A DNA stretch of 64,000 nucleotides from Flavobacteriales bacterium (GTDB lineage Bacteria; Bacteroidota; Bacteroidia; Flavobacteriales_D; Crocinitomicaceae): positions 186,001 to 250,000 of the forward strand of contig CANMHB010000002.1 of the NCBI GenBank assembly GCA_947497485.1, given 5' to 3'. Position numbers and translations under genes: made by a program. Below, in pieces: positions 7,534 through 19,277 of this stretch. Every line of letters starts with the position of its first letter. The first letter of the stretch is position 1. The notes under the pieces are model-generated. The model ran no database searches. It worked only from the letters and a program-made list of their open reading frames with translations, and was not told the origin of the DNA.

Positions 7534-10161
7534 TTAAGAAATTACTCCATTCTCAATCTCTGCATCCAAGTAATCTTGCACGATATCAATTGCATTGTCA
7601 ATTACATCACTTAATGCGGTAATGAATGTTCCTTCTTCTGCAATTGAAATGGCGTGCTTGATGGCTTCTGTCTCGAGTGTAACAACTTCATAAGTAACAT
7701 TCGTATTCGACTCGTTGATTCCTTCCAAAATCAAATCAATGATCTCCTGTTCGGTTCTACCTCTGAGGTGTTTTTCTTGTCTAATAACAATGTGATCAAA
7801 CATTCTGGCTGCAATGCGCGCACATTCCTTGATGTCTTCGTCTCTGCGATCTCCAACCCCGGAAATGATTCCAATCTTTCTTGTTGCTTCAACAGACTTC
7901 AAGAAATCTTCAATTCCACGGTAACCATTCGGGTTGTGTGCAAAATCGATCATCACCTTGAATTTCGAGAATTCAAAAATGTTCATTCTACCCGGCGTTT
8001 GAGCCGCTCCAGGAAGGAAAGTCGCTAATGAAAGTTTGATGTCTTCCGTTTTAAATCCGTACAAGTATGAAGCAAGGGTTGCGGCAAGAACATTGTAGAT
8101 CATAAACTTAGCCTTTCCGTTCATTGTAAGCGGAATATGCGTAGCGCGTTCAACTCGGAATTTCCAGTCACCTTTTTTGATGGTGATGAATCCGTTTTCA
8201 TAGATTGCAGCAATTCCACCTTTTTTGCAGTGTGCGATTATTGCCGGGCAATTTTCATCCATACTGAAAAGAGCAACATTGCATCTCAAATTTTCAGCTA
8301 TTTCGAGGCAGTTTTCGTCTTCGCCATTCAACACAGCCCAACCGTCTTTTTTGATGCTGTCTACAACAACTGATTTAACGCGAGATAAATCTTTCAAATT
8401 ATGAATATCACTTATCCCAAGGTGATCTTCTTGAATGTTAGTAATTACACCGATATCACAACGACTAAAGCCTAAGCCTGATCTTAGAATTCCACCACGG
8501 GCTGTTTCTAGAACTGCAAATTCAACATTTGGATCTTTCAATATATATTCTGCACTCATAGGTCCAGTGGTATCACCTTTTTCCATCATGTGATTTTGGA
8601 TGTAGATACCATCCGAAGTCGTGAATCCAACTCGGTAACCATTGTTTTTAACGATGTGTGAAATTAAGCGAGTAGTGGTAGTTTTTCCGTTTGTGCCTGT
8701 AATAGCAATAATTGGAATGCGTGACGGTTTCCCTGGAGGATAAAGCATATCAATTACTGGAGCAGCCACGTTACGCGGTAAACCTTCCGAAGGAGCCAAG
8801 TGCATTCTAAATCCAGGTGCAGCATTCACTTCCAAAATAACACCACCATTTTCTTTCAATGATTCGGTAAGATTCGCAGCCATGATGTCAATTCCACAAA
8901 TGTCCAAACCGATTACGCGAGAAATACGCTCGGCCATGAACACATTTTCAGGGTGCATTAAATCTGTAACATCGATGGAAGTACCTCCTGTGCTGAGGTT
9001 TGCAGTCGACTTCAGATAAACAATTTCTCCATGAGGGGGAACCGTTTCAAGTGTGTAATTCTTCTTTTCCAGTAGTTCCATTGTATCGCGATCAACCGTG
9101 ATTTCAGTCAATACGTTTTCGTGTCCGTAACCGCGTCTTGGATCTTTATTCGTTTCATCGATCAATGTTTGAATACTGTCTTTTCCATTTCCAACTATAT
9201 GAGCAGGAACGCGCTGAGCGGCTGCAATTACTTTATTGTCAATCACCAAAACGCGGAAATCGAATCCCGTAATGAAACGCTCAACGATCACTCTGCGAGA
9301 ATATTTTTTAGCGTATGCAAGTCCTTCGACAGCATCTTCCCAGTTTGTCACATTGATTGAAGCTCCTTTTCCATGGTTTCCATCTAGTGGTTTGATTACA
9401 ATCGGATATCCAATCGATTTGATTGTGTCTTCCAAATCTTCTTCATCGACACAAATGGATCCTTTCGCAACAGGAATTGAGGCGGCATCTAACATTTTTT
9501 TGGTTTGCTCCTTGTTACAAGCGATGTCAACGGCAATGTTACTCGTTTTACAAGTTATCGTTGCTTGAAAACGCATTTGATGAACACCATAGCCCAACTG
9601 AATCAAGGAATTTGTTCCAAGTCGGATCCAAGGGATATTTCTTGCAACAGCTTCGTCTACAATGCTTCCGGTACTTGGGCCAAGTCGAACATCCTCGCGG
9701 ATTTCTTTCATTTTTTGAATGTCGCGTTGTAAGTCATATTCGTCCCCTGCAATTAATGCCTCGGCAATTCGAACAGAGGCTTCCGCGGCATACAATCCAA
9801 CTTTTTCCTCCAAGTAGTTAAAAACAACGTTGTAAACACCCGGTGTTTTTGTCTCGCGCGTTCGACCGAATCCAACATCCATTCCAGCAAGTGTTTGAAT
9901 CTCTAAAGCAATATGTTCGATTACATGCCCCATCCATGTTCCGCGTTCGATGCGTTGAAAGAAACCTCCGCGACATCCTTCTGAACAACGGTGTTCAATA
10001 AGACTAGGAATCAATTGTTCAATTCGCTCTCTGAAACCAGCTATTTTGTTTGTCGGTTTTTCTTCCAGATCCTCTAGATCCAAGCGCATTTGAATTAATT
10101 TTTTTCTGGTAATACTCCAAATGTTTGGACCTCGTAAAGCTTGAATTTTAAGAATTTTCAT
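7534..10161 (-). CDS. cphA: Cyanophycin synthetase
   Basis: Makes the storage polymer multi-L-arginyl-poly-L-aspartate from Asp, Arg and ATP. The 875-residue length and order fit: an N-terminal domain with EHIALEIQ, an ATP-grasp domain (VIKPLDGNHGKGASI; EVNAAPGFRMHLAP), and a Mur-ligase-like C-terminal domain with the P-loop GTNGKTTTTRL and NIQEDHLG and FAHNPNGY motifs. The ATG is 10161. A TAAATTTG -10-type box lies upstream at 10225-10232 on the minus strand. No cyanophycinase or isoaspartyl dipeptidase gene is next to it, although these commonly accompany cphA. Confidence 0.96.
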   Translation of the reverse strand: MKILKIQALRGPNIWSITRKKLIQMRLDLEDLEEKPTNKIAGFRERIEQLIPSLIEHRCSEGCRGGFFQRIERGTWMGHVIEHIALEIQTLAGMDVGFGRTRETKTPGVYNVVFNYLEEKVGLYAAEASVRIAEALIAGDEYDLQRDIQKMKEIREDVRLGPSTGSIVDEAVARNIPWIRLGTNSLIQLGYGVHQMRFQATITCKTSNIAVDIACNKEQTKKMLDAASIPVAKGSICVDEEDLEDTIKSIGYPIVIKPLDGNHGKGASINVTNWEDAVEGLAYAKKYSRRVIVERFITGFDFRVLVIDNKVIAAAQRVPAHIVGNGKDSIQTLIDETNKDPRRGYGHENVLTEITVDRDTMELLEKKNYTLETVPPHGEIVYLKSTANLSTGGTSIDVTDLMHPENVFMAERISRVIGLDICGIDIMAANLTESLKENGGVILEVNAAPGFRMHLAPSEGLPRNVAAPVIDMLYPPGKPSRIPIIAITGTNGKTTTTRLISHIVKNNGYRVGFTTSDGIYIQNHMMEKGDTTGPMSAEYILKDPNVEFAVLETARGGILRSGLGFSRCDIGVITNIQEDHLGISDIHNLKDLSRVKSVVVDSIKKDGWAVLNGEDENCLEIAENLRCNVALFSMDENCPAIIAHCKKGGIAAIYENGFITIKKGDWKFRVERATHIPLTMNGKAKFMIYNVLAATLASYLYGFKTEDIKLSLATFLPGAAQTPGRMNIFEFSKFKVMIDFAHNPNGYRGIEDFLKSVEATRKIGIISGVGDRRDEDIKECARIAARMFDHIVIRQEKHLRGRTEQEIIDLILEGINESNTNVTYEVVTLETEAIKHAISIAEEGTFITALSDVIDNAIDIVQDYLDAEIENGVIS

Positions 10162-10245
10162 AGGTAATTATTGTATGATTTAGTTTTGGAAAGAATAAAA
10201 ATATAAAAAAGAATTTAGATTTTACAAATTTAGGGGGTTGTGAAC

Positions 10246-10486
10246 GGATTAATTGCGAATTGCGAACGTTGGTAGTTGCGAATGGAATAGTTTCGAGTTG
10301 CGAACGTTGGTAGTTGCGAATGGAATAGTTGCGAGTTTCGAACAGTGGTAATTGCGAATGGAGTAGTTTCGAGTTGCGAACAGTGGTAATTGCGAATGGA
10401 GTAGTTGCGAGTTGCGAACGTTGGGAGTTGCGAACGAGGCGTTCTGCATTAGCAATTTTAAGTTCGCAATTCAAGTACAGCAATTC
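10246..10486. repeat. Left 38-bp tandem repeat block with 60-bp tail
   Basis: Four contiguous units start at 10274, 10312, 10350 and 10388, exactly 38 bp apart; the core is AGTTGCGAATGGAATAGTTG followed by CGAGTTGCGAACGTTGGT. The block begins with GGATTAATTGCGA and ends with a 60-bp tail (10427-10486) that carries GTTCGCAATTC, the inverse of the GAATTGCGAAC near its left end. The same head, units and tail recur at 10953-11140. Open frames through the block only read the repeat and are not genes. Units are adjacent without spacers, so this is a minisatellite and not CRISPR. It fills most of the 403-bp gap between cphA and the next gene. Confidence 0.92.
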
Positions 10487-10517
10487 ATCTCGATTTGGCA
10501 TTAATATAGGCTCTTTA

Positions 10518-10564: not shown

Positions 10565-10930
10565 ATGAATTCTAATAGCATCGTACAAACAAAAAGTTTT
10601 AATTTTTCCATTCAGATCATAAAAACCTATCAATATTTGGTTGAATCCAAAAGGGAATTTACGTTATCAAAACAATTACTTCGTTCCGGAACTTCTATTG
10701 GTGCGAATGTCACTGAAGCAGAACATGGTCAATCAACAAAAGATTTCATTCATAAATTATCCATTTCAAGAAAAGAGGCAAATGAAACGATTTATTGGTT
10801 GCGACTTTTGGGCGCTACTGGTTACTTGGAGGAGGATAATTCTCAAAAACTTATTAAAAATTGTGACGAACTGATGAAACTACTTACAAGTATTATTAAG
10901 ACTACTAAGTCGAGAAATAACCTTTTGTAA
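10565..10930 (+). CDS. Four-helix-bundle protein (S23 rRNA intervening-sequence type)
   Basis: The 121-residue protein shows the hallmarks of the family: FNFSIQIIKTYQYL near the start, LSKQLLRSGTSIGANVTEAEHG (residues about 38-59), KLSISRKEANETIYWLRLL, and a final helix with a basic tail. Such proteins were first seen inside intervening sequences of 23S rRNA genes, and a related fold serves as the accessory protein of diversity-generating retroelements. Neither an rRNA gene nor a reverse transcriptase is here. The gene sits alone between two directly repeated blocks (10246-10486 and 10953-11140), which suggests it moves or is maintained as a cassette. Molecular role unknown; nucleic-acid binding is plausible from its charge. 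Confidence 0.9.
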   Translation: MNSNSIVQTKSFNFSIQIIKTYQYLVESKREFTLSKQLLRSGTSIGANVTEAEHGQSTKDFIHKLSISRKEANETIYWLRLLGATGYLEEDNSQKLIKNCDELMKLLTSIIKTTKSRNNLL

Positions 10931-10952
10931 ACAGGCGTAAATAGTGGTAGAG

Positions 10953-11140
10953 GGATTAATTGCGAGTTGTGAACTTTTGGGAGTTGCGAATGGAGTAGTT
11001 GCGAGTTGCGAACGTTGGTAGTTGCGAATGAATTAGTTGCGAGTTGCGAACCATTGGAGTTGCGAATGGAATAGTTGCGAGTTGCGAACGAATCGTTCTG
11101 CGTTAGCAATTCTAAGTTCGCAATTCAGATACAACAATTC
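10953..11140. repeat. Right 38-bp tandem repeat block with 60-bp tail
   Basis: Same head (GGATTAATTGCGA at 10953), 38-bp units at 10982, 11020 and 11058, and the same 60-bp tail at 11081-11140, which matches the left tail 10427-10486 without gaps at 53 of 60 positions by my count. Orientation is the same as the left block. It begins 22 bp after the stop of the four-helix-bundle gene and ends 11 bp before the end of the histidine kinase gene. Confidence 0.92.
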
Positions 11141-11151
11141 TAAATTCTTAA

Positions 11152-12225
11152 TTATTTCAACGGGATTCCTCTTGAACTCACCGGACCGGAAATTTTGCTT
11201 TTTTCTAGGCTAAAACTGAATGTGCTTCCAACACCAATTGTACTTCGAACGTTTATCGCTTGACCATGTGAGTCTAGAATATGCTTCACTATTGACAATC
11301 CTAGTCCGGAACCTCCTTCATTGCGATTTCTACTTTTTTCTACGCGGTAAAATCGTTCAAAAAGACGCGGTAAATGTTTCGCTTCGATACCAGGTCCGTT
11401 GTCTGAAATTTCGATTGTCACTAAGTTTTCATATTGATTTAGAGAAATTTCAGTTTTCCCTCCTTCATTTCCGTAAGAAATAGAGTTATTAATCAAATTA
11501 GTTAATACTTGTCCAATTTTTGTTCGATCTGCACCTACCGAAATCTGATTATAATCTTTTGTCATTGAAACATTTATATTGCGTTGTTTCGAAGCGATTT
11601 CTAATGAGTCAATGATTTCTTTAATTAATTCGACAAGATCAAAGGAGCGAATTTCCAAGTTCAATTCATCTACCTCCAGTTTGGCGATTTGGTCAAGGTC
11701 TTCCAGAATATTCACCATTCGATCAGTTGCCTTGTTTGCTCGCTCTAAAAAAGAACGATTAACGGATTCATCTTCTAGTCCGCCATCCAAAAGCGTTAAT
11801 AGGTATCCTTGAATTGAAAAAATAGGGGTTTTGAGCTCATGCGCAAGGTTTCCTAAGAACTCTCGTCGAAATTGCTCTTGTTCTTTGAGTTTTGAAATTT
11901 CAAGATTTCGATCTTCTTTCCAAACTTCTACATCGCTTTCGGCGATTTCTATCATTTTATCTATGCCGGGAGATTTGTTTTTCATCTCATCTTCATTAAC
12001 TTGGATTGACCGATAGATTAAAAAAAGCCGATTATGAATGAATTTTTTTAAAAGAAAATAGAATATTATGTATGCAATTAAACCAGAGACAATCGGAATT
12101 GAAAATAACAGTGTGTTTGAGAAAGGAAGAATAAACAAATCAACTATCAAGGCAAGTATGAACCCCGTAACAGAGAAAATCAAACTTCCATATAAGATTA
12201 AAATGCTTGGTCTGGTGTTCTTCAC
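11152..12225 (-). CDS. Sensor histidine kinase, PhoR-like
   Basis: Two transmembrane helices (about residues 9-31 and 38-60) with almost no periplasmic loop, a linker, then a HisKA domain with phospho-acceptor His129 in NLAHELKTP and an HATPase domain with N box (NLINNSISYG), G1 DNGPGI, F box and G2 GGSGLGLSIV. Architecture and sequence resemble PhoR-type kinases of Bacteroidota. It overlaps the response regulator gene by 4 bp, so they are translated as a pair. The lack of a sensor domain means it probably senses through the membrane or a partner. That it responds to phosphate is an inference, supported by the TTAA arrays upstream of the two neighbouring genes. Confidence 0.92.
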   Translation of the reverse strand: MKNTRPSILILYGSLIFSVTGFILALIVDLFILPFSNTLLFSIPIVSGLIAYIIFYFLLKKFIHNRLFLIYRSIQVNEDEMKNKSPGIDKMIEIAESDVEVWKEDRNLEISKLKEQEQFRREFLGNLAHELKTPIFSIQGYLLTLLDGGLEDESVNRSFLERANKATDRMVNILEDLDQIAKLEVDELNLEIRSFDLVELIKEIIDSLEIASKQRNINVSMTKDYNQISVGADRTKIGQVLTNLINNSISYGNEGGKTEISLNQYENLVTIEISDNGPGIEAKHLPRLFERFYRVEKSRNRNEGGSGLGLSIVKHILDSHGQAINVRSTIGVGSTFSFSLEKSKISGPVSSRGIPLK

Positions 12226-12911
12226 TTATCGTTGAATGTATATCCGATTCCTTTTATGGTACGAATATAATCATCTCCTAGTTTTTCTCGTAACTTTCTA
12301 ATGTGAACATCAATGGTTCGTTCCCCGACAATTGTTTCATTTCCCCAAACGATTGTTAGAATTTGCTCTCGATTATAAACTTTTCCCGGTCTGCTCGCCA
12401 AAAGTTCGAGCAATTCAAATTCTTTTTTGGGAAGAAGCATTTCTTTGCCTTCGATTTCTACTGTGAATTTCTCACGGTCGATTTTAATTGCTTTTGCACC
12501 CTCTAATACTTCAAATCCACCTGATTTTTCTAGCCTTCTAAGCAATGACTCTATTTTGCTTAAAAGAAGTCGTGGTCGAATGGGTTTTGAAATGTAGTCA
12601 TCTGCCCCTGCTTCAAATCCGGCAATTTGCGCATAATCTTCTGCGCGGGCGGTAAGAAAGGCAATGATTGGTTGTGTTAAATTTAGATCCTTTCTAATCA
12701 CTTGACATGTTTCGATACCATCCATTTTTGGCATCATGACATCAAGTAAAATTAAAGATGGGTTTAGTTGCTGTGTCATTCGAACGGCTTCTTCGCCATT
12801 CGTAGCAGTAAAGACTTTATATCCTTCTTTTCGGATATTGTATGACAAAAACTCGAGGATATCCGGTTCATCATCGACAAGAAGTATGGTATGTCCTTTT
12901 AAGTTTTGCAT
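12222..12911 (-). CDS. Response regulator, PhoB/OmpR family
   Basis: Receiver domain with Asp13/Asp14, phospho-acceptor Asp57 (LLDVMMPKMDG), Thr87 and Lys109 (SKP), followed by a winged-helix DNA-binding domain (about 130-229; GEMLLPKKEFELLELL-like start, IDVHIRKLREKLG recognition region, IKGIGYTF end). The partner kinase overlaps its stop. OmpR/PhoB regulators bind tandem direct repeats about 11 bp apart, which is the spacing of the TTAA arrays at 16201-16268 and 19210-19277. Only 59 bp separate it from the T9SS gene upstream, and that gap holds a terminator, so its promoter probably overlaps the end of that gene. Confidence 0.94.
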   Translation of the reverse strand: MQNLKGHTILLVDDEPDILEFLSYNIRKEGYKVFTATNGEEAVRMTQQLNPSLILLDVMMPKMDGIETCQVIRKDLNLTQPIIAFLTARAEDYAQIAGFEAGADDYISKPIRPRLLLSKIESLLRRLEKSGGFEVLEGAKAIKIDREKFTVEIEGKEMLLPKKEFELLELLASRPGKVYNREQILTIVWGNETIVGERTIDVHIRKLREKLGDDYIRTIKGIGYTFNDK

Positions 12912-12924
12912 TTGCGTTTAGAAT

Positions 12925-12951
12925 AAAAAGGGCCGAAACTAAGTCCGGCCC
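12925..12951 (-). terminator. Rho-independent terminator after the T9SS surface protein gene
   Basis: Read on the minus strand: GGGGCCG, an 10-nt loop, CGGCCC and then five T residues. The stem is GC-rich in an AT-rich gap and starts 20 bp past the stop of the gene ending at 12971. It should separate that gene from the two-component system. Confidence 0.85.
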
Positions 12952-12970: not shown

Positions 12971-15900
12971 TTATTTTTTTACAATGATTCGTTTTGTAAT
13001 GGTATTATTCATCGAGTGAACAAGTACTGAATACATTCCATCTGAAACGTTAGCAAGATTCAATTCGATAGTGTTAAAACCTGTTGAGTTAAATTCATCA
13101 CTTGCATATATTACACGACCTAATTGATCCACTAATTCAATTGATATCGCGTTCCCATTTTGATTTTCGAAGTTAACGAAAACCTCATCGCTTGTTGGGT
13201 TAGGATATACAATAAGATTTGAAATTCCCATCAATTCTTCAACGCTTGCAGTAATTGCAACATTGAATGTTGTTGTATCTGTACAGTTACCGTTTATAGC
13301 TGTTAATACAACTTGGTAAGTTCCATTTACTGCGTAAGCATGCACTGGAGCTGAAGCTGAAGAGTTTGTGAAGTCTCCGAAATCCCATGAATAAGAAGTT
13401 GCACCGGTAGAACTATTTGAGAAGGTAACAACATTTCCATTTGTTGAGAACGAACCCGCAGCAGTTGGTGTAGCTGTAAATGTAACGTTAACTGAGTTTG
13501 ATGTTCCCACACCCGCACAAGCATCAGCATTCGTTGTGATAACTGTGTAGTTTCCAGAAGCTGTAACATTAATTGACTGAGTTGTTGCACCATTTGACCA
13601 AGTATACGAATCAGCAGCAGTAGATGTCAAAGTTACAACCTCACCCGAACAAGCTTGAGTAGCAGACGAAGTAACTGTCGGAGTTACAGTGTTGAAAGTT
13701 ACAGTAACTGGATTTGATATACCTACACCGTTACAAGCATCAGTATTTGCAGTTGTAACAGTATAAGAACCGCTAGCATTAACTGTAATTGATTGAGTTG
13801 TTGCACCATTCGACCAAGTGTATGAATCTGCTGTTGTAGAAGTTAAAGTGATAGTTTCTCCTGTGCATGCAGTTAAAGATGAAGCTGAAACAGAAGGAGC
13901 TGGAGCATTAGTAACGTTTACAGTAACTGGATCTGAAACATCAGAACAACCATTTGCATTTGTTACAGTAACGGTATAATTTCCTGATGCATTTACGGTT
14001 ATTGTTTGAGCTGATGAATTATTCGACCAAACATTACCAGATGCTGCAGACGACGTAAGATCAACACTTCCTCCTTGACAGAAATTCAAAGCTCCAGTGT
14101 ATGAAATAGTTGCAGTTGGATTTTGATTAACGGTAATTGTTAAATCAGTTGTAGTGGCACATTGACCAGTACTTGGTGTAAATGTATAAGTCGTTGTCTG
14201 TGTATTATCCAATGCAGGAGTCCAAGATCCAGTAATGTTATTCAATGAACTTGTTGGTAAAGCAGTTAAGTTAGCTCCTGAACAAATCGCCGAAACTTGA
14301 GAAAAGAATGGTGTTGCATTTGGCTGAGCCGTTACATTTGATGGAGCAGAAGTTGAAGAACAGTTGTTGTTGTCAGTAATTGTTACGGTATAGTTTCCTC
14401 CAGTTGTTACAATAATAGATTGTGTAGTTGCACCATTTGACCATGCATAACTTGCTGCTGATGGAGCTGAAAGCGTAACACCTGAACCTTCACAAAAAGT
14501 TAATGGACCATTAGCTGAAACCGTAGGTGTAGCAGGTGAAGGATTTACTAAAACTGTTATAGCAACCTTCGGACTTTCGTCTCCTGTTGCATTTTTTTGG
14601 CTAACATAATAGGTAAATGTGCCAGCTGTTGCTGTACTTGGTGATGGAGCACCAGATAGCGCTGTTCCTGTTGGAGAAGTGTACCAAAATAATGTATTTC
14701 CTGTTGATGCAGTTGCAGTTAACGTAGACGCGGTTTCTCCTTGACAATAGGTGTAAGAAGTGGTTGCTACTGAAGGAGCAGCTACACTGAAGAACTTTGA
14801 ATCAATAAAGTTAGCTCCTGTTGCAGCCACAGAACCATTAGCTAATCGAGCATCTGGAGCCGTAGCCATGGCTGTGAAAATATTCACCCAGTTAACTTGT
14901 GCTAACGTTGATGTTGAATCGTTGTTATCAGCTCCCCACCATGATTGGTACCAAGAAGTTGTTGCTGGAGAAAGAACTTGTGTATTAGTATTCGTTGAGG
15001 ACCATGAAGGTGTTGCAAAATTTGTTAGAATATTATTAGCAAATACCAAGGTATCCCCGTTTAAGTTGTTTACGCTTGCTGCTCCTTCAACATAAAGTCC
15101 TCTTTCAAAACCAGTAGCAATTGAATTAAAGACACTTGTTGCAGTATTTCTTCTTAAACGAAATGCACGTTCGTGTTTTTCACCTGCAGGAAGCGATACA
15201 GTGCCATTACCTTTGGCTCCAACTAACGTAATATTTGAAAATATTGGTCTTGTTTTAGGCTGAGCTGTTGTACCATTAGCATCATTATCCGATTCAAAGC
15301 CATTAGAATCACCAATAGCATCTGAAAGGTCTTTGTCTCTAATGATTAAACCAAACTGAACTTTTCCTCTATATCCGAAATCGGTATCAAAATCGTCATC
15401 AACAGTTCTGTAAGCGATAAGGTGTTTACAATTCACAGTACCACCAAACCATTCGAAAGCATCATCACCACTTAAGGTAACTTGAACATAATCAACCGTA
15501 GTTCCTGAACCAACTGAACCAAAAGTAATTCCGTTAATTTCTTTGTTTGGCTCAAGTGCAATACCAGCAAATTCAATACGCACATATTTAATGGTACCAG
15601 AGTTGTCTGTATCAAAGCTACCTCCATATTGTGTATCAGTTGTAGGAACAATACCTTCAATGTTTGCAACACCGCCTGGTTGGTTATTTTTTGCTAAACC
15701 TAATAAAACAACACCACCCCAATCACCTGGAGCTCTTAATCCTACTGCCTGATTTGAGGTAAACACAATCGGTTGAGAAACCGTTCCAATTGCATTTAAT
15801 TTAGCACCTCTTGTAACGATTAGTGAACCTTGAGTTACTTTATCACCTAAAATTACTGTCCCTGGCTGGATTGTAAGTGTCGCGTTGTTTTTTACATACA

Positions 15901-16156
15901 CTTTGTTTTGTAAAAATACCACACCAGACCAAGTTGTACTTGTTGTAATATCCGTTGAAACGGTTATTGTGGGTGTTGTAGGATAAGCCGTATTTTGTGG
16001 ATCAAAATTTGACCATCCAGCTGTCCAATCTGTTGCCGGTGTATTATCCGTAACAGGAAACGCTCCTTTGTAGGTAGTAGGAGTCCAAAAAGCATCTTGT
16101 GCATTGAGTCCAACCCCAAAGCATATAGAAGCAATTAACGTGTAAATCTTTTTCAT
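12971..16156 (-). CDS. Large T9SS surface protein with beta-helix-like N-terminal domain, Ig-like repeats and PKD domain
   Basis: The start MKKIYTL at 16156 gives a clean signal peptide (cleavage after LNAQ); the frame runs 9 codons further without a leader. Residues about 55-450 form a conserved beta-rich domain (LTIQPGTVILGDK, GDWGGVVLLG, DDAFEWFGGTVNCKHL, DDDFDTDFGYRGK) resembling a parallel beta-helix and rich in Asp, possibly Ca-binding. About 470-880 hold five or six Ig-like repeats (YTWSNGATTQSITVNASG is repeated nearly unchanged). A PKD domain follows (YSWDFGD), then a T9SS type A sorting domain (LIVYPNPTSDEVFV). It lies downstream of a TonB-dependent receptor and shares its operator pattern, so it is probably the surface partner of that receptor. 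Ligand unknown. Confidence 0.88.
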   Translation of the reverse strand: MKKIYTLIASICFGVGLNAQDAFWTPTTYKGAFPVTDNTPATDWTAGWSNFDPQNTAYPTTPTITVSTDITTSTTWSGVVFLQNKVYVKNNATLTIQPGTVILGDKVTQGSLIVTRGAKLNAIGTVSQPIVFTSNQAVGLRAPGDWGGVVLLGLAKNNQPGGVANIEGIVPTTDTQYGGSFDTDNSGTIKYVRIEFAGIALEPNKEINGITFGSVGSGTTVDYVQVTLSGDDAFEWFGGTVNCKHLIAYRTVDDDFDTDFGYRGKVQFGLIIRDKDLSDAIGDSNGFESDNDANGTTAQPKTRPIFSNITLVGAKGNGTVSLPAGEKHERAFRLRRNTATSVFNSIATGFERGLYVEGAASVNNLNGDTLVFANNILTNFATPSWSSTNTNTQVLSPATTSWYQSWWGADNNDSTSTLAQVNWVNIFTAMATAPDARLANGSVAATGANFIDSKFFSVAAPSVATTSYTYCQGETASTLTATASTGNTLFWYTSPTGTALSGAPSPSTATAGTFTYYVSQKNATGDESPKVAITVLVNPSPATPTVSANGPLTFCEGSGVTLSAPSAASYAWSNGATTQSIIVTTGGNYTVTITDNNNCSSTSAPSNVTAQPNATPFFSQVSAICSGANLTALPTSSLNNITGSWTPALDNTQTTTYTFTPSTGQCATTTDLTITVNQNPTATISYTGALNFCQGGSVDLTSSAASGNVWSNNSSAQTITVNASGNYTVTVTNANGCSDVSDPVTVNVTNAPAPSVSASSLTACTGETITLTSTTADSYTWSNGATTQSITVNASGSYTVTTANTDACNGVGISNPVTVTFNTVTPTVTSSATQACSGEVVTLTSTAADSYTWSNGATTQSINVTASGNYTVITTNADACAGVGTSNSVNVTFTATPTAAGSFSTNGNVVTFSNSSTGATSYSWDFGDFTNSSASAPVHAYAVNGTYQVVLTAINGNCTDTTTFNVAITASVEELMGISNLIVYPNPTSDEVFVNFENQNGNAISIELVDQLGRVIYASDEFNSTGFNTIELNLANVSDGMYSVLVHSMNNTITKRIIVKK

Positions 16157-16200
16157 TTTTTTATTTAATTTTAGTTGGCACAAATTTCCGTTGTTAAAGA

Positions 16201-16268
16201 TTAATGAGCGTTACATCCTTCTTAAGTCTTCGTTAATTGTTTGTTAAATAGAGAAAACAATTTGTTAA
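16201..16268. promoter_or_regulatory. TTAA half-site array (candidate Pho-box-like operator)
   Basis: TTAA occurs at 16201, 16222, 16233, 16244 and 16265 (spacings 21, 11, 11, 21), plus TTACAT at 16211. The three central sites form an exact 11-bp direct repeat, the spacing bound by PhoB/PhoP-type regulators (Bacillus PhoP boxes are TTAACA repeats). The array is 45-112 bp upstream of the T9SS gene start at 16156. The identical spacing recurs at 19210-19277. Confidence 0.6.
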
Positions 16269-16287
16269 TATTGGAACTTAAATACTT

Positions 16288-19134
16288 TTAGAAGTTATAT
16301 TTCAAAGAAAGTGAAACAGTTTGTCCGAAGGTTATTTCTTGCCAAGCACTATCAACACCAAGATCATATTTCTTATTCTTATTAATGTCTTGGAAATAAA
16401 CCAAATCTTGAGCAAGGATATCCTTGACATTTAATTTAATTTCAAGTTTTTTCTTAATTATTTTAGAAACTTGAAAGTCAATTACATTTCTACCATTTTC
16501 CCAAACGCTCGGTTCTTGAACGCTCCCTGCAATTGCAATACGTTGTCCAACAAGGTTGTATGAAAGATTGATATTGAAATCTTTCGGTCCAGCATAGAAG
16601 ATTCCGGCATTAATCAAATAAGGTGATTGACCTTGTAACGGTCTTCTAGCATCTGGATATTCCGCCTGCCCTGCAATTGCACTTAAATCCATAACTGATC
16701 GAATCAAGGCACCATTAAAATAAAGTGTAATATCCTTTAGGAAGGAAGAAGTATCTTTTTTATTTAAGGCACCAAGATTCATTCTATATTCGAATTCCGC
16801 CCCATAGTTTACAACATCTCCAACATTTTCGAAATACAATTCTGGGGTTCCTGATGTACCTGTTCTCAAGATTAACTCAATTGGATTAAAAAATTCTTTA
16901 TAGAATCCAGATAAGCTGATAATTTGTCCTGACCCTGGGAAAAACTCAAAACGTAAATCATAGTTATTGATTTTTGCCCTTTTTAAATAAGGGTCACCAG
17001 ATGTAAGGTTGTCGTTCACGAAATTGTAGAAAATAAACGGTGCTAATTCTCTGAATTCCGGTCTTGAAACAGTTTTGGAATAGCTTGCTCGAATATTGAT
17101 TTTTTGAATGGGTGAGTAAATTAAATTTACGGAAGGAAGTAAATCAACAACCGTTGTGTCAATATTCTGAGGAAGGTTAGATCCAAATTGAATATATTTA
17201 AATACTTGGTTGTATGATTCAAGGCGTGCACCTCCTACTAATCTTAACTTTTCACCTATTTTACTATCTAATTGAGCGAAGCCGGCATTTAAGAATGAAC
17301 TGGCTTGATAACTATCATCCACATTGGTTCCTTCTTCTAATTTATAGCCTCCTTGTCCGTTTGCCATCAAACCCAAATTTTCAGGGGCAAAGATTTTGTC
17401 AGGCTCTAATAGCAGTAAACTTGAATTGAATGATGCCGGTCCAGCAGGATCATACATTGAGAAACCTAAATTTCTTGCAGCAAATTCCCTCGTTCTATAT
17501 TGATGCATTCCACCAAGTTTAACCTCATTTTTTGTTTTTCCAAACGTGAAAACTTTTGAGATGTCATATTTGGCATTCGAATTTTTTTCATTCAGCGTAG
17601 ACCAAAACATGTTCCCTGCTCCTAGAGTTGTAATATCATTGTATTGAATAATTGCAAAATAGGGCTGTGTAGTATCTGTTTGCTGGTATACGGTTCTTCG
17701 CAAATTAGGAATATCGCGTTTGATGTTACTAAATCCTAAAACCCAATTGAATTTATATGCTGATTTGGACTCATGTGCTCCTAATAACTGTCCTGTATAT
17801 AGATTATTCTGTGTATACCACATATTTGTTGAACGCTCGTTGTAATTATTACCAAGAATATCGCGTTTTCCTTGACGAACGTTTACTTTATCCTCAGAGT
17901 TGACGGTATATAGATTTTTGAATTGAATGCTGTTTTTCTTTCCAAAAGAATACTTGAAATTTGCCATCGCATTACTAATTACTGAATTACTGAAGACTGA
18001 ATCTCTTAAATCATTAGTCATAATAATACCTGCAGCTTGCTCTTCAAATTCTCTTCTTATAATTCGATTAATGGAATTACTATTTTGATAGCTATATGCT
18101 AAAACATAACCCAGTTTACTTGAATCCTTAAAGCTTACAGTTCTCCCCAACGTATATTGCAAGCTCAAATTAGGCATAGCAACTCTGTTTTTTGTTGACC
18201 AAGAAGTGTTGATCAATTTAGCTTGTTCTGCTTTTTGAGCAGAAGACATAATATCAAAATCGGAAGTTGACGCAACCCCATCTGGTATGCTTCTACCCGC
18301 TGTGCCATAACCTAGGAAATCAGTTGAGGTACCATCGTAAGTCTTAAATGTTTTAAAAGTGCTTAATGTATTGTAGGAGGTTGAAATTTGTATATTCTGA
18401 AAATCTTTGTCCTTTGGTTCGGTTGTATTGATATTGATTACCCCACCCGCGAATTCACCTGGTAATTCAGGTGTAGCGGTTTTGGTAATTAAAAGATTAT
18501 CCAACATATTAGAAGGGAATAAGTCAAATGAAAATGCTTTTCGATCACTTTCAGAACTTGGTAACGACGCACCGTTTAATAAAGCAAAATTGTAGCGATC
18601 GCTTAATCCTCGGATGACAACGAATTTATTATCTTGAACACTCGCTCCGGAAATTCTTTTTAAAACATCAGAGGCTTTAGAGTCAGGAGTCTTTTTAAAT
18701 GTTTCAGCATTAATTCCATCAACTACGGTAGCGCTGTTTTTTTGCATGCGAATCAACTCGGTTGTTGACTCTTTATTTACTTTTTTTGTAATTGTAACAC
18801 CCTTTCGATCAACAACAAGTTTTTCCAAATCAATATTAATTTCTTTTGTTTCTCCGGTAGCCAAATCAAAAGCAGGTAGAACTTTTGTTTTATAGGTTTC
18901 AAAACGAATTTCAAGAACAATATTTCCAGGCTTCACATTTTCAATCGAATATTTCCCGTTGTCATCTGCAACGCCACCAACTCCTTGTTGACCTTTAACG
19001 ATAACTTTTGCACCTATTAAAAGTTCTGTTGAAGTAATGTCTTTTACAGTTCCAGTAATCTTAGCATTTTGAGCAAAGTCGAAAAAAGTAATCAGGATAA
19101 AAGAAACGAGGAATAGGTTTTTGAGTAAATTCAT
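16288..19134 (-). CDS. TonB-dependent outer-membrane receptor with CarboxypepD_reg domain
   Basis: Signal peptide (1-21), a carboxypeptidase-regulatory-like beta-sandwich (about 25-105: ITGTVKDITSTELLIGAKV), a plug domain (about 125-235: KASDVLKRISGASVQ, FVVIRGLSDRYN, ELPGEFAGGVININT) and a 22-strand barrel ending in aromatic Phe (SLSLKYNF). Imports a substrate across the outer membrane using TonB energy. There is no SusD-like gene, so it is not a glycan SusCD pair. The gene next downstream encodes a T9SS surface protein, separated by 131 bp with its own operator-like array. Given the PhoB/PhoR-like pair nearby, a phosphate-related substrate is possible, but this is inference. Confidence 0.93.
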   Translation of the reverse strand: MNLLKNLFLVSFILITFFDFAQNAKITGTVKDITSTELLIGAKVIVKGQQGVGGVADDNGKYSIENVKPGNIVLEIRFETYKTKVLPAFDLATGETKEINIDLEKLVVDRKGVTITKKVNKESTTELIRMQKNSATVVDGINAETFKKTPDSKASDVLKRISGASVQDNKFVVIRGLSDRYNFALLNGASLPSSESDRKAFSFDLFPSNMLDNLLITKTATPELPGEFAGGVININTTEPKDKDFQNIQISTSYNTLSTFKTFKTYDGTSTDFLGYGTAGRSIPDGVASTSDFDIMSSAQKAEQAKLINTSWSTKNRVAMPNLSLQYTLGRTVSFKDSSKLGYVLAYSYQNSNSINRIIRREFEEQAAGIIMTNDLRDSVFSNSVISNAMANFKYSFGKKNSIQFKNLYTVNSEDKVNVRQGKRDILGNNYNERSTNMWYTQNNLYTGQLLGAHESKSAYKFNWVLGFSNIKRDIPNLRRTVYQQTDTTQPYFAIIQYNDITTLGAGNMFWSTLNEKNSNAKYDISKVFTFGKTKNEVKLGGMHQYRTREFAARNLGFSMYDPAGPASFNSSLLLLEPDKIFAPENLGLMANGQGGYKLEEGTNVDDSYQASSFLNAGFAQLDSKIGEKLRLVGGARLESYNQVFKYIQFGSNLPQNIDTTVVDLLPSVNLIYSPIQKINIRASYSKTVSRPEFRELAPFIFYNFVNDNLTSGDPYLKRAKINNYDLRFEFFPGSGQIISLSGFYKEFFNPIELILRTGTSGTPELYFENVGDVVNYGAEFEYRMNLGALNKKDTSSFLKDITLYFNGALIRSVMDLSAIAGQAEYPDARRPLQGQSPYLINAGIFYAGPKDFNINLSYNLVGQRIAIAGSVQEPSVWENGRNVIDFQVSKIIKKKLEIKLNVKDILAQDLVYFQDINKNKKYDLGVDSAWQEITFGQTVSLSLKYNF

Positions 19135-19209
19135 TTTGCAAGCTTTAAAATCTCCTGCAAAGGAACGCTAGCTAATTAACCTTGAAATTAAACAAAGGTT
19201 AAGATTATA

Positions 19210-19277
19210 TTAAGCATTCAGACAATCTACTTAACAATACCTTAACATTGAGTTAAAGGGAGATTATTTATCGTTAA
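19210..19277. promoter_or_regulatory. TTAA half-site array (candidate Pho-box-like operator), second copy
   Basis: TTAA at 19210, 19231, 19242, 19253 and 19274: spacings 21, 11, 11, 21, the same as at 16201-16265. The central trio reads TTAACA, TTAACA, TTAAAG on the plus strand. Further TTAA at 19199 and 19188 continue the 11-bp phase towards the gene. The array is 76-143 bp upstream of the receptor start at 19134. Around the last two sites the two arrays also share TTAAA..GAGA and GTTAAT. Confidence 0.62.

Follow-up and report, generated by a model that had tools for sequence, protein, structure and literature searches.

The window analysed here, a 64-kb stretch of the 3.10-Mb, 34-contig genome of a Crocinitomicaceae bacterium of the order Flavobacteriales (contig C2, 186001-250000), has arrays of short TTAA-containing repeats in two neighbouring promoters. 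One precedes a gene for a TonB-dependent receptor and the other a gene for a beta-helix surface protein with a type IX secretion system (T9SS) sorting tail. We propose, with a probability of roughly 0.85, that the arrays are Flavobacteriales Pho boxes, at which bound PhoB replaces the -33 promoter element and induces the receptor and beta-helix genes. The repeated unit is (T/A/G)TAA(C/T), sometimes ending in G. On the gene strand it is repeated as head-to-tail copies with an 11-bp period, and additional units are offset by 21 bp. Counted from its start, the last well-conserved unit precedes the -7 box TTTG by exactly 30 bp. What is directly seen is that these repeats exist, are conserved, have their 11-bp period and keep a fixed phase to the -7 box, and that in relatives they are associated with phosphorus genes. 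An initial annotation of this DNA had suggested a PhoB/PhoP-type operator uniting the receptor and its T9SS partner in one regulon, and the conserved 11-bp repeat and the phosphorus genes downstream of it in relatives support that view.

Repeats in phase with the -7 box

The initial annotation placed TTAA at 16201, 16222, 16233, 16244 and 16265 and again at 19210, 19231, 19242, 19253 and 19274, with a common 21-11-11-21 spacing and an excess of TTAA in both intergenic gaps. All of this holds. The spacing has no third occurrence within the 64 kb, and the gaps contain 8 and 9 TTAA, which makes 17 of the window's 574 compared to an expectation of 2.5. The array did not arise in any of 20000 single stretches simulated with a Markov-1 model of equal composition, and among 3000 simulated pairs none had a five-TTAA spacing pattern in common.

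The repeats are read on the gene (-) strand, and d is the distance in bp from a unit to the TTTG of the -7 box. In the receptor promoter, with the -7 core TTTG at 19158..19161 as the phase anchor, conserved peaks coincide with TTAAT at d=30 (19187..19191), TTAAC at d=41 (19198..19202) and TTAAT at d=52 (19209..19213), and a smaller peak with TTAAG at d=73 (19230..19234). Three more units are seen in the window: TTAAG at d=84 (19241..19245), TTAAC at d=95 (19252..19256) and TTAAC at d=116 (19273..19277). The receptor array extends to TTAA at 19199 and 19188, which the initial annotation missed and which are its best-conserved units. In front of the beta-helix gene (-7 core TTTG at 16181..16184), the main run reads TTAAC, TTAAC, TTAAG, GTAAC. 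Its conserved peaks are GTAAC at d=30 (16210..16214), TTAAG at d=41 (16221..16225) and TTAAC at d=63 (16243..16247), with a smaller peak of 8 for TTAAC at d=52 (16232..16236); TTAAC at d=84 (16264..16268) was also seen by eye in the promoters of several relatives.

Measured from the -7 box, the two five-site arrays lie at 20/41/52/63/84 (beta-helix) and 52/73/84/95/116 (receptor), a shift of 32 bp, so that the five-site pattern takes different members of the unit series in each promoter. The TTAA at 16201, 20 bp from the -7 box, does not fit the 11-bp grid; here GTAAC at 16210-16214 is the conserved unit. Because the registers differ, the identity of the five-site pattern is partly fortuitous, whereas the 11-bp repeat is not. 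We therefore rejected the strict 21-11-11-21 array as the operator, the window arrays being out of register and the last 21-bp step of the beta-helix array falling off the conserved grid. The exact array is not a conserved unit either: at least four of its five TTAA are kept upstream of only 6 of the 30 beta-helix genes among the best family matches, own genome included.

Of 120 family genomes, 114 encode a relative of the whole beta-helix protein (E up to 1e-20, in some cases matched through repeat domains only); for the N-terminal domain, the order yields 125 genomes out of 150 (E up to 1e-12). Among the 40 relative regions that we compared, 39 have a receptor homologue next to the beta-helix gene and 22 contain a regulator homologue. 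In the 300 bp upstream of these genes we looked for four TTAAC-like units spaced at periods of 7-16, a score of 15/20 or more counting as a pass; promoters with less than 250 bp before the start were dropped, which left 39 beta-helix, 38 receptor and 23 regulator promoters, window included. Period 11 passes in 23 of the 39 beta-helix promoters (0-2 at each of the other nine periods) and in 23 of the 38 receptor promoters (0-3). When the promoters are collapsed by genus, it is uniquely best in 14/18 genera for the beta-helix gene and 13/19 for the receptor, compared to at most one for any other period, and a passing promoter is found in 10/18 and 10/19 genera, compared to at most two at any other period. 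Regulator promoters pass at period 11 in 6/23 cases versus 0-1 at other periods; each of these six regulator genes is transcribed divergently from a receptor or beta-helix gene, whose array it may share. The initial annotation held that its proposal would fall if the array lay at random sites or were not conserved in orthologous promoters, and it is the 11-bp repeat that proves to be conserved there across genera.

The phase to the -7 box is conserved as well. Receptor promoters contain 28, 25 and 22 TAA(C/T) units at d=30, 41 and 52 (mean 2.05 per distance), with a further peak at 73, and beta-helix promoters contain 25, 18, 8 and 25 at d=30, 41, 52 and 63 (mean 1.49). The 21-bp step to the next run recurs in relatives: it shows in the receptor peak at 73 and, by eye in several promoters, in a TTAA placed 21 bp before the d=63 unit. 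Unit orientation is marked in beta-helix promoters, where TAAC-in-phase exceeds GTTA-in-phase (9 vs 2 at lag 11, 16 vs 0 at lag 33); the two are about equal in receptor promoters at lag 11 (12 vs 11). Bacteroidota promoters have TAnnTTTG at -7 and TTTG near -33, the latter not being identifiable in F. johnsoniae (PMC7366714). Since the published consensus puts TTTG near -33, the d=30 unit would sit at the position of this element. The repeats thus have the head-to-tail arrangement and 11-bp period of a Pho box, and the d=30/41/52 peaks give them a fixed position that would overlap the upstream promoter element.

Genes downstream of the operator in relatives

To search more widely we used pattern P3, TAAB-N7-TAAB-N7-TAAY-N25-TTTG, which consists of three units plus the phased TTTG with zero mismatches. 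P3 was designed once the family promoters had been viewed and two FII promoters of Flavobacterium inspected by eye, and it fixes the base after TAA as not A (C/T in the last unit), so the base preference at this position is not independent evidence. P3 gave 25 matches in the 40 relative regions compared to 0 for the reversed pattern, 147 matches in 100 of 150 family genomes versus 56 reversed, and 49 versus 23 in 133 genomes from other families of the order, the last two pairs of totals being summed by hand. Each family genome has 0-4 occurrences.

We examined 40 regions, representing 39 of the 147 family sites and one site from Flavobacterium sp. SLB02 (L312 has no site and L286 has two). Recurrent sites were preferred in the choice, so the proportions of downstream genes are not those of a random sample. 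The 40 sites precede 10 phoB-like regulators (48-70% identity to the window regulator), 3 receptors, 1 beta-helix gene, 1 PstS gene (TIGR02136, over cut-off) and 1 PPK2 gene (over the Pfam cut-off, under that of TIGR03707). Of the 49 sites in other families, 21 were examined in 20 regions, again not a random sample; they yielded 4 regulators, 2 beta-helix genes, 3 Porin_O_P-type genes (2 Pfam-tested) and 1 PlcP-like phosphoesterase; the rest are 2 Band 7 genes, 1 carbonic anhydrase, 1 LytB, 3 sites without an open reading frame (ORF) and 4 others. Counting receptor and beta-helix genes, 16/40 and 10/21 sites precede phosphate-starvation genes. The initial annotation had named arrays before known phosphate genes as the support to look for, and in relatives sites do precede PstS, PPK2, porin, PlcP-like and phoB-like genes. 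A site in front of a phoB-like gene, in the direction of that gene, suggests phoB autoregulation in these relatives, an arrangement not seen in this genome.

From receptor, beta-helix, regulator, PstS, PPK2, PlcP, porin, MarC and L350 promoters we gathered 47 sites, 43 after removal of near-duplicates. All 43 have A or T 3 bp before TTTG, a position that is free in P3, in agreement with the -7 consensus. The base before each TAA, also free in P3, is T in 63-77% of the sites. Binomial values for these preferences include the FII sites and were set aside as evidence. The list was built from the families on which it is tested, apart from the identities of the downstream genes and the Flavobacterium clusters. 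The L350 membrane protein, Pit-like by eye, has no Pfam match and was not counted as a phosphorus gene; its site was kept in R1, a model trained on 41 of the 43 sites (2 MarC sites left out).

For comparison with a system of measured phosphate response, F. defluvii and Flavobacterium sp. SLB02 stood in for F. johnsoniae UW101, which was absent among the best 80 of 468 loci. Their clusters (L211 and L214) encode Agt-like, OprP, PhoR-like, PhoB-like, TonB receptor and FII-like proteins, in the order published for Fjoh_0541-0546 (PMC8115612); we assigned the label FII by gene order and FI by likeness. By eye, both FII promoters have units at d=30/41/52 and the receptor promoters at d=30, 41, 63 and 74. 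Exact P3 matches number one in F. defluvii, in the FII promoter, and two in strain SLB02, in the FII promoter and before a peptidase S66 gene. Upon phosphate depletion of F. johnsoniae, the reported fold changes, which we read as log2 because the column includes negative values, are 8.02 for the receptor Fjoh_0545, 9.91 for FII Fjoh_0546, 5.42 for Agt, 3.06 for PhoB and 8.59 for PlcP (PMC8115612).

R1 scored 150 of the 2306, 4268 and 4625 first-look candidates in the own and the two Flavobacterium genomes, with rough E-values. Among its training sites are the two of the window and the two FII sites of Flavobacterium, and R1 matches these by construction. Beyond these, R1 picked out the following in each of the two Flavobacterium genomes: the promoters of receptor, OprP and Agt in the phoBR cluster at low individual significance (E 0.01-6), an FI-type promoter (E 0.13 and 1.7), a PhoU_div gene promoter (E 0.006 and 0.008) and a choice-of-anchor I gene promoter (E 0.001 and 0.002), the last two identified by Pfam on one gene of each pair.

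Several genes of other kinds recur behind such sites. MarC-family genes L276 and L289 (PF01914) and L309 and L313 (by likeness) are preceded by an exact operator, several other genomes of the genus of L276 have site strings near-identical to its own, and MarC may belong to the phosphate regulon. Band 7/SPFH genes L334 and L339 follow exact operators in two families, L334 together with the carbonic anhydrase gene. Operator-like sites also precede genes for choice-of-anchor I proteins, in Flavobacterium as well as in this family: L287 and L358 (Pfam) and L359 (likeness).

Comparison with known systems and alternative explanations

The Pho boxes of E. coli PhoB and B. subtilis PhoP are likewise tandem 11-bp direct repeats that overlap the upstream promoter element of phosphate-starvation genes, and the proteins bind them as head-to-tail dimers with one subunit per 11-bp unit. 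The B. subtilis PhoP unit, TTAACA, is close to the unit found here. In contrast, the E. coli unit CTGTCAT differs from (T/A/G)TAA(C/T) and does not describe these arrays, which differ from both systems in having 21-bp offsets and, in the window's receptor promoter, seven units. The anchor also differs, lying 30 bp upstream of a Bacteroidota -7 TTTG rather than at a sigma-70 -10 box. The box is a lineage-specific variant and not the enterobacterial Pho box.

The nearest published motif is that of Riemerella anatipestifer PhoP, whose DNA affinity purification sequencing (DAP-seq) motif has TTTAACA as its most conserved bases, containing the TTAAC unit, and which binds upstream of its own phoPR operon (PMC9603813). 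By this likeness of motif, it would give direct support for binding of such a unit by a PhoB-family protein. That motif was reported as ArcA-like around 579/583 peaks and discussed for virulence; the passages describing it draw no link to phosphate starvation, 11-bp arrays or the -7 box (PMC9603813). The F. johnsoniae PhoBR operon, or PUSIV (Fjoh_0541-0549), also has a receptor and a beta-helix FII gene beside phoB-phoR (PMC8115612), and its copies in our two Flavobacterium genomes carry units at distances matching those of the window. In those copies, however, phoB is divergent from the receptor gene, whereas the four window genes lie on one strand, and FII is called a lipoprotein (PMC8115612) whereas the window protein has a T9SS tail. 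A third parallel is Caulobacter crescentus elpS-cc0171, a phosphate-starvation-induced surface protein beside a TonB-dependent receptor, although ElpS is a lipoprotein released by a type II secretion system and cc0171 is expressed in rich and poor media (PMC2996285). The relation of FI/FII to ElpS is as stated in PMC8115612; the likeness of the window protein to ElpS is by description. The main text of PMC8115612 does not use the words 'promoter', 'Pho box' or 'operator'. B. fragilis PhoB binds the pstC promoter, and the word 'consensus' is absent from that paper (PMC3547664). Our literature search turned up no Bacteroidota Pho-box consensus beyond the Riemerella TTTAACA motif.

We infer that the PhoB-like regulator encoded beside the two genes binds the arrays in this organism and activates both promoters. 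Upon phosphate starvation, the neighbouring PhoR-like kinase would phosphorylate this regulator, whose dimers would assemble head to tail along one side of the helix, each 11-bp unit contacting one subunit. The promoter-proximal dimer could then recruit sigma and RNA polymerase, replacing the weak or missing -33 element, and the receptor and its T9SS-exported beta-helix partner would be induced together as a surface phosphorus-scavenging pair.

A genuine operator could instead serve another OmpR/PhoB-family regulator or a signal other than phosphate, such as envelope or redox stress. Regulator and kinase both score under the curated PhoB/PhoR cut-offs, the Riemerella PhoP motif was likened to that of ArcA and envelope or redox stress was discussed for this regulator (PMC9603813), and many sites precede MarC, Band 7, T9SS or genes of unknown role. 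We nevertheless consider this unlikely: genes behind the sites in relatives include PstS, PPK2, Porin_O_P, PlcP-like and phoB-like ones, and in Flavobacterium the syntenic cluster shows a strong phosphate response (PMC8115612). Phased TTAA might also be a structural feature of strong promoters, bent or flexible AT-rich DNA akin to an UP element, that acts without a dedicated regulator. Its AT-richness, phasing near the helical repeat and proximity to the -7 box would fit, but we regard this as very improbable: the strict pattern occurs only 0-4 times per family genome, with many sites at phosphorus and phoB-like genes, and the beta-helix promoters have an orientation bias, though one lacking in receptor promoters at lag 11. 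That the two arrays resemble each other through recent promoter duplication or chance, without function, is suggested by the identical five-site spacing and is harder still to credit: the sequences between the sites differ, the registers differ by 32 bp, none of the 3000 simulated pairs shared a pattern, and the units of each promoter are separately conserved in orthologues across genera.

Several results weigh against the Pho-box interpretation. In relatives, 24 of the 40 examined sites precede no known phosphorus gene (4 MarC, 3 without an ORF and 17 others, many of them T9SS-tailed or without a Pfam match), and the same is true of 11 of the 21 sites from other families. More distant promoters often have no recognisable array in the period scan (e.g. 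L191-L194, L196 and L197), and 244 control upstream regions show small 30/41/52 peaks of their own (8, 12 and 7 vs 2.72), which come either from additional genes under regulation or from the same genes with alternative starts. The window regulator falls below the curated PhoB cut-offs, as does the regulator of a Flavobacterium phoBR cluster (L211; 205.8 and 217.2 bits), and phoB in this genome has no array of its own and a terminator-like hairpin in front. In F. johnsoniae, PhoR (0.76) and OprP (-1.3) do not change significantly (PMC8115612). Since OprP is an R1 match and is not induced there, not every R1 match signifies activation.

Within the own genome, the counts are no stronger than those of the controls. 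TTAAC-N6-TTAAS-N6-TTAAS matches twice, in just the two window promoters, and its reversed form once on the forward and twice on the reverse strand; P3 also finds only the two window promoters, a count equal to that of its reversed control (2 and 2). Because the reversed controls are similarly frequent, the own-genome argument rests on position, not number. A loose search for TTAAC at 11 bp with 3 mismatches was useless (257 matches vs 884 reversed). Two candidates that were promising by function are not conserved: the arrays between a plcP-like and a ppx gene (C5:12353-12618), with 2/8 promoters at period 11 in relatives, and the one before a VTC-domain gene (C3:31427-31477), with 2/30, both near background. 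No further convincing site emerged among the 150 candidates scored by R1 in this genome, and the further regulon members that the initial annotation thought possible in the genome were not established. An exact site does precede one PlcP-like gene from another family.

A broader proposal, to which we give about even odds, is that units phase-locked 30, 41 and 52 bp upstream of TAnnTTTG constitute an order-wide, possibly phylum-wide Bacteroidota Pho operator that replaces -33, a Bacteroidota form of class II activation. The box could then be recognised from nothing but the sequence, and the phosphate regulon would gain unsuspected members: MarC, SPFH/Band 7, choice-of-anchor I and further surface proteins. 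The Bacteroidota play an important part in mobilising organic phosphorus, and for Flavobacterium there are proteomes recorded under phosphate depletion. Because the box has a fixed distance to the -7 element, the regulon could be predicted in unstudied members. The box also allows a direct test of a PhoB-family activator on Bacteroidota promoters with a weak or missing -33.

The locus and neighbouring features

The genes of the locus, all on the - strand, follow the order OmpA-type proteins, TonB-dependent receptor, beta-helix protein, PhoB-like regulator and PhoR-like kinase. The initial annotation put the PhoB/PhoR-like pair two genes away, which is correct for the regulator relative to the receptor; the regulator gene directly adjoins the beta-helix gene. 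The receptor (16288..19134, 948 amino acids), the first target gene, has Pfam plug, barrel and CarboxypepD_reg domains and is TIGR01782-like, scoring 198.9 bits against that model, under the cut-off of 310. The response regulator (12222..12911), the presumed binder, has NF053854 (207.5 bits, cut-off 270) and TIGR02154 (205 bits, cut-off 296.2) as its best NCBIfam models, and because it does not reach these curated PhoB cut-offs we name it only PhoB-like. The kinase (11152..12225; HisKA, HATPase_c) is PhoR/PnpS-like, with 250 bits for PnpS and 237 bits for PhoR, each under the cut-off.

The second target gene (12971..16156, 1061 amino acids) encodes an ElpS/FI/FII-like protein with Por_Secre_tail, PKD_4 and Ig_7 domains. 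Its N-terminal domain is a right-handed beta-helix in a predicted model (predicted local distance difference test, pLDDT, 81), with fold matches to polygalacturonases, pectate lyases and tailspikes that are all weak, none having E <0.001; a sequence search for related solved structures found none. Identities of ~30-45% to FI/FII-type homologues in the two Flavobacterium genomes, together with the TonB receptor neighbour, place the protein, by its likeness to FI/FII, in the ElpS/FI/FII family. It lacks the lipoprotein anchoring of that family and has the T9SS Por_Secre_tail instead, from which we infer a surface location via another anchor.

Between the beta-helix gene and the response regulator gene, a GC-rich hairpin followed by a T run on the - strand (12930..12951) was recognised by eye and is likely an intrinsic terminator; a hairpin scan with a loop limit of 8 did not list it. 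Because this terminator-like hairpin precedes phoB, phoBR may need read-through or a promoter of its own. Beyond the kinase gene, ORFs at window positions 10148-10501 and 10843-11109 are built of repeated RNSQL/ATTNVRNS-type peptides and flank a small ORF at 10565-10930; they are probably a repetitive intergenic stretch and not genes.

Elsewhere in the genome (G000), C5:10459-12352 encodes a PlcP-like metallophosphoesterase followed by a family 1 glycosyltransferase, like the lipid-remodelling pair of other bacteria. Counting the own genome, 8 of 60 family genomes have this metallophosphoesterase (E up to 1e-40).

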